The notes below the pieces were generated by a model. It ran no database searches, was not told where the DNA came from, and saw only the letters and a list, made by a program, of their open reading frames with translations. Made by a program: the position numbers and the translations under genes. Positions 23,052 through 64,000 of a DNA stretch of 64,000 nt are shown piece after piece. How positions within the stretch are numbered: position 1 is the stretch's first letter; the number at the start of each line of letters is the position of its first letter. Origin of the DNA: Neptunitalea lumnitzerae (lineage in GTDB: Bacteria > Bacteroidota > Bacteroidia > Flavobacteriales > Flavobacteriaceae); assembly GCF_027924185.1 (NCBI RefSeq), contig NZ_BRVO01000001.1, forward strand, positions 1,116,001 through 1,180,000, given 5' to 3'.

Positions 23052-23088
23052 AAAACCCTAATTAGTTTATTGCTAATTAGGGTTTTTT
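23052..23088 (+). terminator. Terminator of tRNA-Leu
   Basis: A 14-bp perfect stem, AAAACCCTAATTAG (23052-23065) with CTAATTAGGGTTTT (23073-23086), has a 7-base loop and is followed by further T. Confidence 0.92.
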
Positions 23089-57856: not shown

Positions 57857-57889
57857 AAAAAACCTGATAACAGTGTTATCAGGTTTTTT
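57857..57889. terminator. Bidirectional terminator beside tRNA-Phe
   Basis: AAAAAACCTGATAAC (57857-57871) and GTTATCAGGTTTTTT (57875-57889) form a 15-bp stem around AGT. Its A and T flanks serve both the tRNA transcript (minus) and any cpsB read-through (plus). Confidence 0.9.
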
Positions 57890-58066: not shown

Positions 58067-58798
58067 ATGATGAATCTAATTATAGATATTGGAAATACGT
58101 TTTCCAAAGTTGCTGTTTTTCAAAATGATATGATAGTGTCCGTTGTTTCGGTGTCCTTTGGAGAACTGCAAAAAAAAATTTTAAAAATTTTTGAAACAAA
58201 TTCTATTTCTCGTTCAATTGTATCTTCTGTAGCGGAAATTCCTTCAGATGTATTAGCATTGCTTAAATCAGAAACAGGAATGGTTTTAATGTCTAATGAC
58301 TTAAAAATGCCATTTAGTAATAAGTATAAAACTCCTGAGACTTTAGGAGAGGATAGGTTGGCGTTAATTGCAGGGGCTGTAAAGAGCTATCCTAAAAAGA
58401 ATGTTTTAGTAATAGATGCTGGTACATGCGTTACTTACGATTTTGTAAATAGTAATGCAGAGTATTTAGGTGGAGCTATTGCACCTGGTTTGCAAATGCG
58501 TTTAAATGCAATGCATGAATTGACTAAGAGATTGCCAAAGCTTGAGTTTTCTGAAATAGAATTTGTTACTGGTGCATCTACTAAAGAGTGTATGATGTCG
58601 GGTGCTGTAAATGGTCTTATTTATGAAATAAATGGGTTTATTTCAGATTACTATAATAATTTTAAAGATTTAACAGTTATTTTAACAGGAGGTAATGCCT
58701 TATTTTTGTCAAAAAGATTAAAAAATGGCATATTTGCCAATTCAAATTTCCTTTTAGAGGGTTTGAATTTTATTTTGGAATATAATAAACTCGAATGA
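58067..58798 (+). CDS. coaX: Type III pantothenate kinase CoaX
   Basis: Catalyses the first step of coenzyme A synthesis, pantothenate phosphorylation. The 243 residues show the ASKHA-fold motifs NLIIDIGNTFSKVAVF (phosphate 1), VLVIDAGTCVTYDFV (phosphate 2) and TVILTGGNALFLSKRL (adenosine), plus GEDRLALIAGA. Length fits the family (about 245). Two adjacent ATGs (58067 and 58070) could serve. Its stop overlaps the next start by 4 nt. First gene of an envelope gene run whose order is typical of Flavobacteriaceae. Confidence 0.96.
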   Translation: MMNLIIDIGNTFSKVAVFQNDMIVSVVSVSFGELQKKILKIFETNSISRSIVSSVAEIPSDVLALLKSETGMVLMSNDLKMPFSNKYKTPETLGEDRLALIAGAVKSYPKKNVLVIDAGTCVTYDFVNSNAEYLGGAIAPGLQMRLNAMHELTKRLPKLEFSEIEFVTGASTKECMMSGAVNGLIYEINGFISDYYNNFKDLTVILTGGNALFLSKRLKNGIFANSNFLLEGLNFILEYNKLE

Positions 58799-60069
58799 TT
58801 AAAAGATTAATAGCAATTGTAGCCTTTATAGTATTGGGGAATATTACTGCTACAGCGCAAGTAGGAACAGCATCTCCTTATTCATTTTACGGAATAGGAA
58901 GTTTGAAGTTTCAAGGAACGATGGAGAATAGAGCTATGGGCGGGTTAAGCCTTTATCCAGATAGTTTATCGTTAAGTATTCAAAACCCAGCTTCGCTTGG
59001 CGAGCTTAATATGACGAACTACTCCGTAGGAGCAACTTTTACAAGATTGAATTTGGAAAGTGATTTTGGAGATGAGACGGCTAAGTCTGCTTCTTTTGAT
59101 TATTTAACCTTGGGTTTTCCTATTAGCCGTAAACTAGGTGTTAGTTTTGGGCTTTTACCTTATACTTCTGTGGGGTATGCTATACAAAGTATTACTGGAG
59201 AAGATGGAAGTCAAGAATTGACAAGGCTTGAAGGAGAAGGAGGAATGAATAAAGTTTTTGTTGCCTTTGGGTATGAGATTACCAAGAATTTAAGTATTGG
59301 TGCTAGAGGTAGCTATGATTTTGGTAAGATAGATAATAGTATTATTAATAGTGTTCAGGGTGTAGAGTTAGGTACTAAGGAAATTAACTCTTCATCTTTG
59401 AGTGGTTTAGATTATACCATTGCTTTAAATTATTCTCAGCCTTTAAAGAATGATTATGTTTTGTATAGTACAGTACAATATACACCAGAGGCTAAGATAA
59501 GTTCTACTAACGATAGATATTTTCAGACTATTTCTATATATGATAACGGGGCTGAAGATGTGCGAGAAGAGTATGATGTTGATTTAGACGCCTTAGGTTT
59601 AGCTGAAACCGACGTAACACTGCCATCAAGAGGAACCTTTGGTTTAGGGGTTGGTAAAAGAAATGTATGGTTTTTTGGTGGAGAGTATGAATATGTAAAC
59701 ACCAGTAATTTATCTAATCCGTTTCTTTCTGTAAATGGTGTAGATTATCAAGATGGTTCTGAGTTTAGATTTGGAGGAATGTTTACGCCTGATTATGATT
59801 CTTATTCAAGTTACTTTAAACGAGCAACTTACCGTGCGGGTGTTAAGTTTCAGAATACCGGGATGATAATAAATGGTGAAGAGGTAAATGACTTTGGCAT
59901 ATCTTTTGGAGTAGGATTACCGGTTGGAAAAATTTCTAAACTTAATTTAGGGTTAGAAATAGGTTCTAGAGGAACTACTAACAGTTCTTTAATTCAAGAA
60001 AATTATGTGAATTTTAGAGTTGGATTGTCGTTATTAGACAGATGGTTTATAAAGAATAGAATTAATTAA
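58795..60069 (+). CDS. Outer-membrane beta-barrel protein
   Basis: A 424-residue exported protein: signal peptide (to ATAQ, about residue 22), then ASPYSFYGIGSLKFQGTMENRAMGGLSL, the start seen in the OmpP1/FadL-like family, and alternating aromatic/glycine strands to a final hydrophobic strand (NFRVGLSLLDRWFIKNRIN). It may transport hydrophobic compounds or act as a structural porin. It is translationally coupled to coaX (4-nt overlap) and precedes the TPR-like gene. Exact family unsure. Confidence 0.75.
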   Translation: MIKRLIAIVAFIVLGNITATAQVGTASPYSFYGIGSLKFQGTMENRAMGGLSLYPDSLSLSIQNPASLGELNMTNYSVGATFTRLNLESDFGDETAKSASFDYLTLGFPISRKLGVSFGLLPYTSVGYAIQSITGEDGSQELTRLEGEGGMNKVFVAFGYEITKNLSIGARGSYDFGKIDNSIINSVQGVELGTKEINSSSLSGLDYTIALNYSQPLKNDYVLYSTVQYTPEAKISSTNDRYFQTISIYDNGAEDVREEYDVDLDALGLAETDVTLPSRGTFGLGVGKRNVWFFGGEYEYVNTSNLSNPFLSVNGVDYQDGSEFRFGGMFTPDYDSYSSYFKRATYRAGVKFQNTGMIINGEEVNDFGISFGVGLPVGKISKLNLGLEIGSRGTTNSSLIQENYVNFRVGLSLLDRWFIKNRIN

Positions 60070-60082
60070 TTATATATTTTTA

Positions 60083-61429
60083 ATGATGAAAAACAGATTT
60101 GCATTATTGATGGTTGCCTTAATTGGGTTTTTAGGTGCATTCAGTGCTAATGCTCAAGATGATTGTAACACAAACCTATCGTTGTTTTATAACGATGCGA
60201 AAGTGAAGAATTATGAGTCTGCATACCCAACATGGAAAAAGGTATTTGATAACTGTCCTCAAGACTTTCACGTGGCGGTATATGCTTACGGAGATAAAAT
60301 TCTTGAGTACAAAATGGAAAATGACGCGGCAAACAGAGCTGAATATGTAAAGCTGTTGTTGGAGCTTTACGATAGATATCATGCAAATTTCCCAACGGGG
60401 AAATATGAGTATACGTATGCTGAAATGGTTATCGATAAAACGAAATTAATGAAGCAGGAAGGTATGCTTACCGATGAGGAGCTTTATAATATGTATAAAG
60501 ATGCTTTTGAAAAAGATAAAGCAAACTTTAATAGTGAAGTTTCTTTGTATTCGTACTTTACAACTACTGTAGATTTATACAAGGCTGAAAAATTAGATCT
60601 TCAAACGGTGTTTGATACTTATGATGGAGTAGGTTCAAAAATTGAAGAGTTAAGAAATGAGCAGTCTGAAATTATGAATCCATTATTAGAGGCTCAAGAA
60701 GCGGGTACAACATTAACTGCTAAACAAGAAAAGTCTTTAGGTAGAGCTCAAAAAAGAATGAGTAACTACGAAGGTATTTCTGAGAGCTTAGAAGCTTACA
60801 TGGGGCAATTAGGTAACTGTGAAAACTTGATTCCTTTGTTTACTAAGAATTTTGAAGCAAATAAAGATAATGAGGAGTGGTTAAATAGAGCTGCAAATGC
60901 TATGACAGAGAAAGAGTGTACAGGTGATCCTTTATACGCTCGGATTGTTGAAAAATTACACAACTTACACCCTTCTGCTAAGTCTGCAAAATACTTAGGT
61001 GTATTAGAGTATAAGAAAGGTAATAATGCTAAGGCTAAAGAGTGGTTTAAGGAATCTGTAGATTTAGAAACAGATAAATTTGAAAAGTCTAAAACTTTAG
61101 TAACTGTAGCTAGTTTGTCTTCAGGTTCTACTGCTGCAAGTTATGCTTACCAAGCATTGAAGTTTAACCCTTCAAACAAAAAAGCCTACGAAGTTATAGC
61201 TAGAGCTTACGCTGCATCTGCAAACAGTTGTGGTAGTACACCTTTCGAAAAAAGAGCTGTATACTGGTTAGCAGAAGAAATGGCTAATAAAGCAGGTAAT
61301 AGTTCTTTAGCTAGTTCTTATAAAGGGTTAGCGCCAAGTAAATCAGATATTTTTAATTCTGGTATGGCTGGTAAAACTATTAAAGTTGGATGTTGGATTA
61401 ACAAATCTGTAAAAGTTCCTAACTTATAA
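60083..61429 (+). CDS. Exported TPR-like protein
   Basis: A 448-residue protein with a signal peptide (to SANAQ, about residue 24). The rest is helical with tetratricopeptide-like periodicity (KNYESAYPTWKKVFDNCP, LGVLEYKKGNNAKAKEWFKES, SYAYQALKFNPSNKKAYEVIARAY in parts) and several cysteines that may form disulfides. No enzyme signature. Probably a periplasmic or outer-membrane scaffold. ATG 60086 is an alternative start. lptC follows 1 nt later, so readthrough through the hairpin at 61463-61497 decides lptC expression. Confidence 0.75.
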   Translation: MMKNRFALLMVALIGFLGAFSANAQDDCNTNLSLFYNDAKVKNYESAYPTWKKVFDNCPQDFHVAVYAYGDKILEYKMENDAANRAEYVKLLLELYDRYHANFPTGKYEYTYAEMVIDKTKLMKQEGMLTDEELYNMYKDAFEKDKANFNSEVSLYSYFTTTVDLYKAEKLDLQTVFDTYDGVGSKIEELRNEQSEIMNPLLEAQEAGTTLTAKQEKSLGRAQKRMSNYEGISESLEAYMGQLGNCENLIPLFTKNFEANKDNEEWLNRAANAMTEKECTGDPLYARIVEKLHNLHPSAKSAKYLGVLEYKKGNNAKAKEWFKESVDLETDKFEKSKTLVTVASLSSGSTAASYAYQALKFNPSNKKAYEVIARAYAASANSCGSTPFEKRAVYWLAEEMANKAGNSSLASSYKGLAPSKSDIFNSGMAGKTIKVGCWINKSVKVPNL

Positions 61430-61430
61430 G

Positions 61431-61994
61431 ATGTTCCGCATCATTAAATATAAATTTATTTGCATTGTCACAGTTTTTGCTGTGACAATGTTTTTTTCTT
61501 GCGAAAATAATTTGGGAGCTTTGCAAAAGTTAACCTTACAGGAAAAATTTCCTATGGGAGAGGCTACCAATTTCACGCTTACCTATACTGACTCTCTTAG
61601 AGTTGTTGCTATCTTAAAAAGTCCGTTAAATTATGATTACGGAAATCAAGAGTTTCCTTATTCTGAATTTCCTGATGGGGTGCATATTGATTTTTTTAAT
61701 GAACAAGAAAATAAAACTACGGTAGATGCTAGGTTTGGTATTTTGTATAATAATACCGATTTGGTTGAATTACGAGATAGTGTGGTTATTAAAACGCATG
61801 AAGGAAAAATATTAAAGACTGATCTTTTGTATTGGGATCAGCGAACGGAATGGATTTATACCGATGATCCGTTTACATTTACAGATCCGGTAGAGGGTAC
61901 TGTAATGAATGGTGTTGGTATGGATTTTAATAAAGATTTTACGGTAGTTAATGCACATAAAACAACTGGTGTAATTTCTATTAAGGGAGAATAA
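61431..61994 (+). CDS. lptC: LPS export periplasmic protein LptC (lipoprotein form)
   Basis: Part of the LptBFGC-A bridge that carries LPS to the outer membrane. The 187 residues begin with a signal ending at a lipobox (VTMFFSC, about Cys24) rather than the membrane anchor of E. coli LptC. They continue with the LptC-like beta-jellyroll repeats (DSLRVVAILKSPLNYDYGN, FPDGVHIDFFNE, LLYWDQRTEWIYTDDPFTFT, GVGMDFNKDFTVV). The first 60 bases of the gene contain a perfect terminator-like hairpin. It starts one base after the TPR gene stop. Confidence 0.8.
   Translation: MFRIIKYKFICIVTVFAVTMFFSCENNLGALQKLTLQEKFPMGEATNFTLTYTDSLRVVAILKSPLNYDYGNQEFPYSEFPDGVHIDFFNEQENKTTVDARFGILYNNTDLVELRDSVVIKTHEGKILKTDLLYWDQRTEWIYTDDPFTFTDPVEGTVMNGVGMDFNKDFTVVNAHKTTGVISIKGE
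61463..61497 (+). terminator. Terminator-like hairpin within the lptC signal-peptide codons
   Basis: CATTGTCACAG (61463-61473) pairs perfectly with CTGTGACAATG (61480-61490) around TTTTTG and is followed by seven T (61491-61497). This meets the form of a rho-independent terminator, 34 nt after the TPR stop. The same bases encode CIVTVFAVTMFF of the lptC signal. Whether it acts is unproven; a ribosome on lptC would melt it. Confidence 0.65.
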
Positions 61995-61996
61995 AT

Positions 61997-62191
61997 ATGG
62001 TTAAGTATTTAAAATTTTTCGAAATAGTATATTTGATAATCGCTATTATTTCTATCTTCGAAGTGATTAGAGAGTATATAAGTTTTCAACAGATAAACTA
62101 TTTATTTTTAATGTTTGGTGTGGTATCTATTGGTATGTACTTCTTTAGGAGGTTTATGCGTAAGAAGATGGAGCGCCGAAACCAGGAATAG
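61997..62191 (+). CDS. Small membrane protein
   Basis: A 64-residue protein with two hydrophobic helices (about 8-25 and 33-50) and a basic tail (RRFMRKKMERRNQE). It starts 2 nt after lptC and ends 17 nt before the CNNM/CBS gene. Similar small proteins occur at this place in Flavobacteriaceae. No function can be assigned. Confidence 0.65.
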   Translation: MVKYLKFFEIVYLIIAIISIFEVIREYISFQQINYLFLMFGVVSIGMYFFRRFMRKKMERRNQE

Positions 62192-62208
62192 TTTAAATTT
62201 AATAAGTT

Positions 62209-63453
62209 ATGGAGATTTCCATTATTGTAATTTGTTTGGTTTTATCTGCGTTTTTTTCGGGGATGGAGATAGCTTATGTGTCTTCTAACAAAATACATTT
62301 GGAGATTGAGAAAAAGCAAGAAACCTTACTTGCTAAGGTGTTAACATGGTTAACACGCCGTCCATCAAAGTATATTGCTACTATGTTAGTAGGTAATAAC
62401 TTGGCTTTGGTGATTTACGGTTTTTACATGGGAGATTTAATTACTACAATGCTCCCAATGCATTTGCAAAATCTTTTGGTGCAAACAATTATTTCAACCA
62501 TTGTAATTTTAATTACAGCAGAGTTTTTGCCTAAAGTATTCTTTCAGATTTATGCTAATAATTTTTTAAAGATATTATTACTGCCTGCATTTGTTTTCTA
62601 TTTACTTTTTTGGCCAATTACTGAGTTTATCATCTGGATGTCTGATATTATTTTAAAATATGTGTTTAAGTCAGATGGTGATAATGTGCAGCTTGCGTTT
62701 ACAAAATTAGAGTTAGGAGATTATATTTCTGAACAAATGGAGTCTGTGGATGAGGATGAGAATGTAGATTCAGAGATACAGTTTTTTCAGAATGCGTTAG
62801 AGTTTTCTGAGGTAAAGGCTAGAGATGTGATGGTGCCTAGAACCGAGATATCGGCTGTTGATATAAACGAATCTATTCAAACAGTGCGTAATGTTTTTAT
62901 TGAGACGGGTTACTCTAAAGTATTGGTTTTTGATGAATCTATAGATGATATAGTGGGGTATGTGCACTCGTTTGATTTGTTTAAAAGGCCTCAAACAATT
63001 AAAGAAGTTTTAATGCCTGTGGGTTTTGTGCCAGAGACAATGTTGATAAGTGAAATTTTAAATGTGCTTATTAAAAAACGAAAGAGTATTGCTGTGGTTA
63101 TTGATGAGTATGGTGGTACTAGTGGTATTTTAACGGTAGAAGATATTGTGGAGGAGCTGTTCGGAGAGATTGAAGATGAACATGATACGGTTGATTTTAT
63201 AGAAGAACAGCTGGCAGATGATGAGTTTAAATTCTCGTGTAGATTAGAGGTGGATTACCTTAATGAAAAGTATAAGTTAGAGATACCAGAGAGTGAGAAT
63301 TATGGTACTTTAGGTGGTTTTATTGTAAATGATATAGGCGAGATTCCGCAGTTGAATGAGGTTATTACTATTGAGAATTTCCGTTTTACAATTTTAGATG
63401 TTACTTACACTAAAATAAAATTAGTGCATCTTAAAATACTTGACACAGAGTAG
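62209..63453 (+). CDS. CNNM/CBS-domain (hemolysin-C/CorC-like) membrane protein
   Basis: A 414-residue protein with an N-terminal CNNM/DUF21 membrane domain (SAFFSGMEIAYVSSNKIHLE and LVGNNLALVIYG are its motifs), two CBS domains (about 205-320: RDVMVPRTEISAVDI, VVIDEYGGTSGILTVEDIVEELFGEIEDE in parts) and a C-terminal CorC/HlyC domain. Members move or regulate Mg2+/Co2+; the historical hemolysin name is not evidence of toxin activity. It lies in the coaX-lptC gene run. Confidence 0.9.
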   Translation: MEISIIVICLVLSAFFSGMEIAYVSSNKIHLEIEKKQETLLAKVLTWLTRRPSKYIATMLVGNNLALVIYGFYMGDLITTMLPMHLQNLLVQTIISTIVILITAEFLPKVFFQIYANNFLKILLLPAFVFYLLFWPITEFIIWMSDIILKYVFKSDGDNVQLAFTKLELGDYISEQMESVDEDENVDSEIQFFQNALEFSEVKARDVMVPRTEISAVDINESIQTVRNVFIETGYSKVLVFDESIDDIVGYVHSFDLFKRPQTIKEVLMPVGFVPETMLISEILNVLIKKRKSIAVVIDEYGGTSGILTVEDIVEELFGEIEDEHDTVDFIEEQLADDEFKFSCRLEVDYLNEKYKLEIPESENYGTLGGFIVNDIGEIPQLNEVITIENFRFTILDVTYTKIKLVHLKILDTE

Positions 63454-63548: not shown

Positions 63549-64000
63549 ATGGCAGTTTTAGAGAAAATAAGAAAGCGTTCCATGTTACTAATTGTAATTA
63601 TTGGACTTTCGTTATTAGCGTTCATTTTATCTAGTTTAGTAGGTAAAGGAAGTTTTACCTTGTTTGGAGATGCAAATAAAATAGGTGAAGTAAATGGAGA
63701 GACTATTAGTTTAGCAGAATTTTCTAATTCTGTACAAGCAGTAACAAGTAATAATCCGAATGCGAGTATTATGAATGCTGTGAACTCTGTATGGAACCGT
63801 GAAGTAAATAACATTATATTAGAAAAGCAATTTGATGATTTAGGAATTCAAATTGATGGAGACCGTATTATGAATCTTGTAAAGCAAAATCCACAAATTG
63901 CTCAAGATCCAAGATTTTTAAATGAGAATGGGGTTTTTGATCCTCAAAAATTCAGAAATTTTATTGCTGATATGAAAGCTGGTGATCCTGCTGGTTATGA
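63549..64000 (+). CDS. ppiD: PpiD/SurA-N-type peptidyl-prolyl isomerase, N-terminal part
   Basis: The gene starts at ATG 63549 and runs off the window (150 complete codons, no stop). It begins MAVLEKIRKRSMLLIVIIGL with one membrane helix (about 11-32), as in PpiD, then KIGEVNGETISLAEFSNSVQ and DRIMNLVKQNPQIAQDPRFL, the SurA-N-type chaperone region. Predicted to be anchored in the inner membrane and to help fold outer-membrane proteins; the rotamase domains would lie beyond base 64000. Confidence 0.9.
   Translation, partial: MAVLEKIRKRSMLLIVIIGLSLLAFILSSLVGKGSFTLFGDANKIGEVNGETISLAEFSNSVQAVTSNNPNASIMNAVNSVWNREVNNIILEKQFDDLGIQIDGDRIMNLVKQNPQIAQDPRFLNENGVFDPQKFRNFIADMKAGDPAGY

Follow-up and report, generated by a model that had tools for sequence, protein, structure and literature searches.

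Why should a structure with the outline of a transcription terminator lie within the first codons of a gene, that is, in letters that at the same time encode a signal sequence? The question is raised by lptC of Neptunitalea lumnitzerae, located in the stretch of 64,000 nucleotides analysed here as a whole and referred to as the window (contig NZ_BRVO01000001.1, positions 1,116,001 to 1,180,000). In this gene the original prediction had placed an 11-bp perfect stem, a 6-base loop and seven T, 34 nt past the stop codon of an upstream TPR-like gene and 32 bases into the lptC reading frame, and all of these elements were confirmed by direct reading of the letters. The analysis presented below suggests, with a probability of roughly 0.75, that they form an intrinsic (Rho-independent) terminator located in lptC codons 11-23 at the TPR-lptC junction, which would be maintained by selection and probably acts only partially.

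The hairpin and its gene neighbourhood

The arms of the stem, CATTGTCACAG (61463-61473) and CTGTGACAATG (61480-61490), enclose a loop of 6 nt (61474-61479); when G-U pairs are counted, a hairpin scan of the window gives 13 pairs and a 4-nt loop. The frame is counted from the ATG at 61431, and the signal sequence of LptC is read as lipoprotein-type because its hydrophobic stretch is closed by a lipobox-like FFS-C, with the Cys codon at 61500-61502. Upstream of lptC and in the same direction lie coaX, bamG and the TPR-like gene (Table 1), which are taken as one transcription unit from the gene order. BamG of F. johnsoniae (Fjoh_1412) is a BAM subunit according to the accessible part of PMC12611786. 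The stop codon of the TPR gene ends 1 nt ahead of the lptC ATG.

Table 1. Positions of the lptC element, of the surrounding genes in the window and of three further in-gene hairpins from the genome sample
Feature	Position	Strand	Basis or remark
coaX, type III pantothenate kinase, upstream	58067..58798	+	family match
bamG (BAM complex subunit), upstream	58795..60069	+	NF053685
TPR-like protein gene, 448 aa, upstream of lptC	60083..61429	+	TPR_2 weak, E 0.005, under Pfam cut-off
lptC, 187 aa, lipoprotein-type signal sequence	61431..61994	+	TIGR04409, PF06835
Terminator-type stem-loop, 11-bp perfect stem, 6-nt loop	61463..61490	+	sequence, folding, covariation, synonymous null
T7 tract immediately 3' of the stem (U-tract in RNA)	61491..61497	+	encodes Phe-Phe and base 1 of Ser
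Hydrophobic ORF, 64 aa, downstream of lptC	61997..62191	+	no family match
CNNM/CBS/CorC-HlyC protein gene, downstream	62209..63453	+	family match
Gene with SurA-like N-terminal domain (SurA_N), 5' part	63549..63998	+	family match
Hairpin in an oppC-type permease gene, 34 nt into it	L271:19871-19903, C1	-	terminator-type
Hairpin 25 nt into a 444-aa gene with membrane start, abutting a 644-aa gene	L262:17949-17983, C1	-	-23.1 kcal/mol
Hairpin in signal codons of an aldose-epimerase lipoprotein gene	L336:4632-4653, C2	-	start overlaps upstream stop

Folding of 61420-61510 yields -24.8 kcal/mol, whereas shuffled sequences average -11.5 (z -5.1), and none of 200 shuffles was as good. The hairpin itself accounts for -17.1 kcal/mol over 28 nt or -19.1 over 30 nt, and the T7 tract follows it directly on the 3' side. 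As in intrinsic terminators, a stable stem with a short loop is followed at once by a run of T, and both its energy and a terminator score are among the highest of the sites in a genome sample. Specifically, among the 187 sites that 864 kb of sampled genome contain, the lptC hairpin stands at the 98th percentile of this score, which amounts to 31-36 here, with a median of 13.7 and a minimum of -6.4 in relatives (n=130). What sets the lptC hairpin apart from known intrinsic terminators is that it forms part of the downstream gene's coding sequence and is conserved there with compensatory changes.

In the 64-kb window, 12 sites fit a strict definition of hairpin and T-run; 9 of these are intergenic, and two loci contribute a site on each strand. 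At 57857-57889 and 23052-23086 of the window, intergenic hairpins have a T-run on either strand and are likely two-way terminators. With an RNA model built on the element, the lptC site reaches 58 bits and the next-best place in the genome 26 bits. Searching Rfam over 60900-62300 returned 11 matches at E up to 10, every one of them under its gathering score, and a known Rfam element was set aside on these grounds.

Signs of selection on the stem and the T-run

When the lptC 5' ends of 30 members of the family, that is, Flavobacteriaceae-type relatives, are aligned, most of them share the stem, the loop and the T-run, placed immediately ahead of the lipobox. Covariation was followed in 22 of the 30 rows, the others having been dropped for an extra Phe codon in the run (L008-L011), an insert in the loop (L012), the lack of a hairpin (L014 and L021) or a shift (L029). 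In these chosen rows, two-sided compensatory changes are found at 12 of 12 stem pairs and 97.3% of the cells pair, against 20-52% in slid controls, while compensatory cells number 64 against a mean of 16.9 in shuffles that ignore kinship. As many as five different pair types are seen at a single stem position, so that one inherited change cannot account for the covariation. With all 30 rows (alignment A1, 463 columns), RNAalifold predicts the lptC hairpin as the sole structure, with two-sided changes at 13 of 13 pairs. In other words, the structure is kept despite sequence change, as is expected of an intrinsic terminator.

The same alignment bears on two readings in which RNA folding would have no role. 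A DNA operator, that is, an inverted repeat bound by a protein, would agree with a dyad that is perfect both here and in the sister species. However, none of the stem pairs is constant across the 22 aligned relatives and yet pairing persists, no half-site sequence is conserved among them, and a search allowing up to 3 mismatches found no further copy of the hairpin elsewhere in the genome; an operator is thus hardly credible and was set aside. As for a coding coincidence, in which the signal-peptide residues themselves would force the inverted repeat, the residues are indeed partly symmetric (IVT...VTM), and resampling synonymous codons with each species' amino acids fixed gives by itself 5.6-9.2 of 12 pairs. 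Nevertheless, the 22 sequences contain 240 Watson-Crick pairs against 170.8 expected from this synonymous null, which is rejected for pair number at p < 0.05 in 21 of 22 (the exception, L006, has 0.07). The longest run of pairs reaches p < 0.05 in only 18 of 22 sequences, and 4 of the 12 stem pairs of L022 are G-U. Moreover, amino acids differ among the relatives while the stem remains paired. A coincidence of coding is extremely improbable in the light of the covariation and of the synonymous null, and it was likewise set aside: the hairpin is not a product of chance.

Codon usage in the T-run points in the same direction. Among the 63 family genes, 48 carry an F/L-F-x-C motif, and in these the Phe codons of the T-run are TTT in 84 of 84 cases, compared with 375 of 471 in the remaining lptC sequence (96 TTC); the longest T run in these 48 genes measures 5-9. 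In named genes (78 of 80), the corresponding figures are 154 of 154 in the T-run and 552 of 703 elsewhere. With respect to the sister species, the 36-nt element is identical, with 0 of 12 third positions differing, compared with 83 of 176 elsewhere. Transcriptional slippage on the T-run was also considered; both shifted frames (+1 and -1) run into a stop after distances that vary and are mostly short, which suggests no alternative product.

A stem that slows ribosomes during synthesis of the signal sequence, as an aid to targeting and with no role in transcription, would fit the position of the lptC hairpins in signal-sequence codons. This reading leaves the T-run unexplained, and such a hairpin is missing from 299 of the 300 other gene starts in the family loci that encode a hydrophobic segment. 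In addition, L029 (G007, 1401-1440) retains the hairpin in frame after loss of the lipobox, whose Cys reads Phe, a second hydrophobic segment ending in Cys following it. Slowing of ribosomes as the sole function is accordingly very unlikely. Taken together, the covariation, the synonymous null, the TTT codons and the comparison with the sister species make the stem and the T-run look selected at the nucleotide level, and the prediction of a terminator-type hairpin within the signal-sequence codons is upheld.

Distribution among relatives and a possible link to the upstream gene

The occurrence of the same hairpin in related lptC genes, proposed at the outset as a check, was found in the aligned relatives, in matches of an RNA model and in counts under a strict criterion, requiring at least 6 pairs, 3 G-C, a loop of 3-10, -9 kcal/mol or lower and a T-run. 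Of 60 relatives drawn regardless of hairpin, 59 have a recognised LptC. The strict hairpin is present in 44 of these 59, namely in 34 of 37 from the family and 10 of 22 from other families of the order. When the 37 family members are joined by the 24 closest LptC matches and 2 more, strict hairpins are counted in 53 of 63 family loci. For other families of the class the figure is 13 of 59 lptC loci, hand-picked from 116 matched genomes by score and then for family coverage, and in one of them (L123) the hairpin is upstream of the gene. A count of 77 of 80 in named records is biased upward, as this set was partly found by a signal-sequence peptide pattern. Algibacter luteus, Mariniflexile fucanivorans and Formosa maritima (loci L157, L170 and L208), all culturable, are examples of species with the hairpin in lptC.

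The strict criterion misses hairpins: 8 of the 10 family misses (L025, L065, L076, L077, L080, L081, L107 and L108) show the stem by eye, some with a shorter or displaced T-run. No hairpin was seen on inspection of lptC in L014 and L021, nor, in the loci inspected, in 6 of 14 other families of the order, and the hairpin is therefore dispensable. A wider search with the RNA model R1, accepting E up to 0.1, matched 258 of the 299 family genomes, a count that includes the 22 sequences contained in R1 itself; LptC was found in 292 of the 299. Among the best 19 matches listed, 16 could be compared with LptC rows and, by eye, all 16 lie at the lptC 5' end. At the same loci, strict hairpins occur at 1 of 421 other gene starts and in 0 of 3159 gene-body windows of 150 nt, a contrast that is not length-matched, the control windows spanning 130 and 150 nt and the lptC region up to about 270 nt. 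One genome (G022:C1:1688005-1690319) contains, about 2 kb after its first lptC match, another that is partial, has internal stops and carries an equally scoring hairpin.

The hairpin also appears to follow the identity of the gene in front of lptC. Outside the family, the strict hairpin is found in 22 of 46 loci where a TPR gene precedes lptC (one of the 22 being L123) and in 0 of 26 where bamG does (Fisher p 7e-6), while inside the family it is found in 52 of 60 loci behind the TPR gene and in 0 of 2 behind bamG. The link is not strict, because four loci with bamG directly before lptC and no TPR gene (L099, L101 (f5), L107 and L108) keep a hairpin that is weaker or has its T-run displaced; two of these, L099 and L101, are among the 26 non-family bamG loci, with the weaker hairpin recognised by eye. 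As a quick LptC tree contains just 2 supported independent pairs for it, the association with the TPR gene is regarded as a lead.

Hairpins can protect 3' ends generated by nucleases. The lptC hairpin might in this way stabilise the 3' end of the upstream mRNA, or mark a site of its processing, rather than terminate transcription, and outside the family the difference between TPR-preceded and bamG-preceded loci would favour such a role. However, an unbroken T-run at the stem and the total absence of TTC codons from it are expected for termination and not for protection, and a stabiliser or processing site is considered unlikely.

Proposed partial termination, translation and a possible class of gene-start terminators

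If the hairpin is a partial intrinsic terminator, RNA polymerase leaving coaX-bamG-TPR would reach the hairpin and U-tract 34-68 nt past the TPR stop, and part of it would stop there. Termination would supply an mRNA 3' end for the upstream genes, and being partial it would lower the level of lptC and of the genes that follow. Read-through is assumed because full termination at lptC, a presumably essential gene, should be lethal. We infer that partial termination, with an effect on expression, takes place in vivo, and the proposal that it lowers expression of lptC and of the downstream genes is plausible. Judging from the general reach of ribosomes, the stem would be free to form before lptC is read, being just out of reach of a ribosome on the TPR stop or on the lptC start, while a ribosome several codons into lptC should open it.

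The genome sample mentioned above (22% of the genome, 686 ORFs) indicates how common such an arrangement is. Of its 187 strict sites, 167 lie between genes. Seven sense sites fall inside ORFs, 5 of them within 120 nt of the start and 2 farther in; a further 7 sites are antisense and 6 straddle the end of an ORF. Four in-gene sites are strong (dG of -14.9 or lower), namely lptC and the three listed last in Table 1. They begin 21-34 nt after the start codon, and the gap to the upstream gene is -1 to 1 nt, or about 10 nt by eye in the case of the oppC-type gene. The other three in-gene sense sites are weaker, with -9.1 at a gene start and -12.6 and -9.8 deep inside genes. The oppC hairpin recurs in 14 of 23 loci examined out of 30 fetched (L296-L308 and L312, its own locus included), the remaining 9 being without it. 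In 12 of these 14 aligned rows, L307 and L312 having been dropped as misaligned, folding energy beats synonymous recoding at p < 0.05 in 11 and pair number in 6; few of the stem pairs covary because the protein is conserved. In the other species of the genus, whose protein is 36% identical, the 444-aa gene likewise has a hairpin at this place, in different letters; the remaining 38 of 40 genomes gave no homologue of this gene. The aldose-epimerase hairpin is absent from 15 homologues inspected, one of which is a paralogue in the same genome, and L347 has a stem without a T-run.

That translation of lptC might control its own transcription, as the original prediction had also put forward, is a special case of the terminator explanation and not exclusive of it. 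Prompt translation of lptC, for example through re-initiation by ribosomes finishing the TPR gene, would open the stem and allow transcription, and slow or blocked initiation would let termination occur. The geometry permits this: the stem edge lies about 30 nt after the ATG, and the TPR stop and lptC start abut or overlap. Measured from the guessed start codon, the stem edge falls at 27-35 nt in most family members; the distances of 67-75 nt that form another cluster are attributed to wrongly guessed starts. In 47 of 63 family loci the upstream stop and the lptC start are separated by -1 to 4 nt. The four strong sites lie similarly at the start of closely packed genes, and the two deep sites are weaker. 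On the other hand, this geometry is in part imposed by signal-peptide architecture, and RNAalifold, predicting one hairpin over the 463 columns, gives no conserved antiterminator fold mutually exclusive with it; nor does Rfam offer an element. A separate leader peptide is likewise absent, as the single nucleotide between the TPR stop and the lptC ATG could not accommodate one. Gating by translation is possible, though less likely than not, and the findings agree with a constant partial terminator as well.

The lptC hairpin may be the clearest of a small class of start-proximal in-gene terminators. A more doubtful extension would be a class in Bacteroidota in which near-gapless genes carry a terminator within the first 10-25 codons, usually in a signal or membrane segment, acting as translation-gated valves, that is, transcription would continue solely where a ribosome promptly begins to read the new gene. 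The lptC hairpin would be its best conserved member, its signal-peptide residues having co-evolved with the RNA stem.

Several known systems resemble parts of this picture, as described in the accessible portions of the papers. In an archaeal survey, operon-internal terminators give neighbouring genes unequal expression (PMC10450193); likewise, the lptC site lies between genes of the same direction and would lower the distal ones, although, unlike the terminators in the accessible text of that survey, it occupies the distal gene's own codons and its conservation is traceable across families. RNA 3' ends within ORFs or in 5'-proximal positions have been mapped in E. coli (PMC7815308), Borrelia (PMC10319736) and Pseudomonas (PMC8297930), and some are scored as intrinsic termination in the E. 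coli study. These 3' ends are experimental and many are ascribed to Rho or to processing; the accessible parts of the three papers describe no covarying gene-start terminator. In bmrCD of Bacillus subtilis, transcription attenuation is mediated by the ribosome (PMC4191407). As in bmrCD, use of the terminator could depend on a ribosome at lptC; unlike it, as far as the accessible text of that paper goes, lptC lacks a separate leader peptide and a conserved antiterminator fold, and the translated gene would be lptC itself. In the same bacterial family, the 3'-PT transcripts of Flavobacterium psychrophilum lie downstream of a predicted intrinsic terminator, with partial termination deduced from RNA data (PMC9723704, accessible part), a likeness to the partial termination proposed here; a term search of the main text of that paper returned no mention of lptC. 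Nothing on lptC or on termination in Bacteroidota was found in the accessible parts of PMC12578637 and PMC13323073, and nothing on a terminator in lptC in the literature searched, which has most subscription journals outside its scope. In-gene 3' ends and partial intrinsic termination, by contrast, are already described, as the available portions of PMC7815308, PMC10319736, PMC8297930 and PMC9723704 attest.

For these bacteria, the hairpin is probably a built-in brake, kept through matched base changes in many related species, and expression of lptC, a step of LPS export, would thereby probably be held down at the junction with genes for outer-membrane assembly. With respect to the interplay of transcription and translation in Bacteroidota, the hairpin should be silent or active according to the time at which a ribosome arrives. 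If this is true, a terminator written in the same letters as a signal peptide, and maintained by compensatory changes over the family and beyond, would show that control of transcription can shape the protein sequence where a gene begins.
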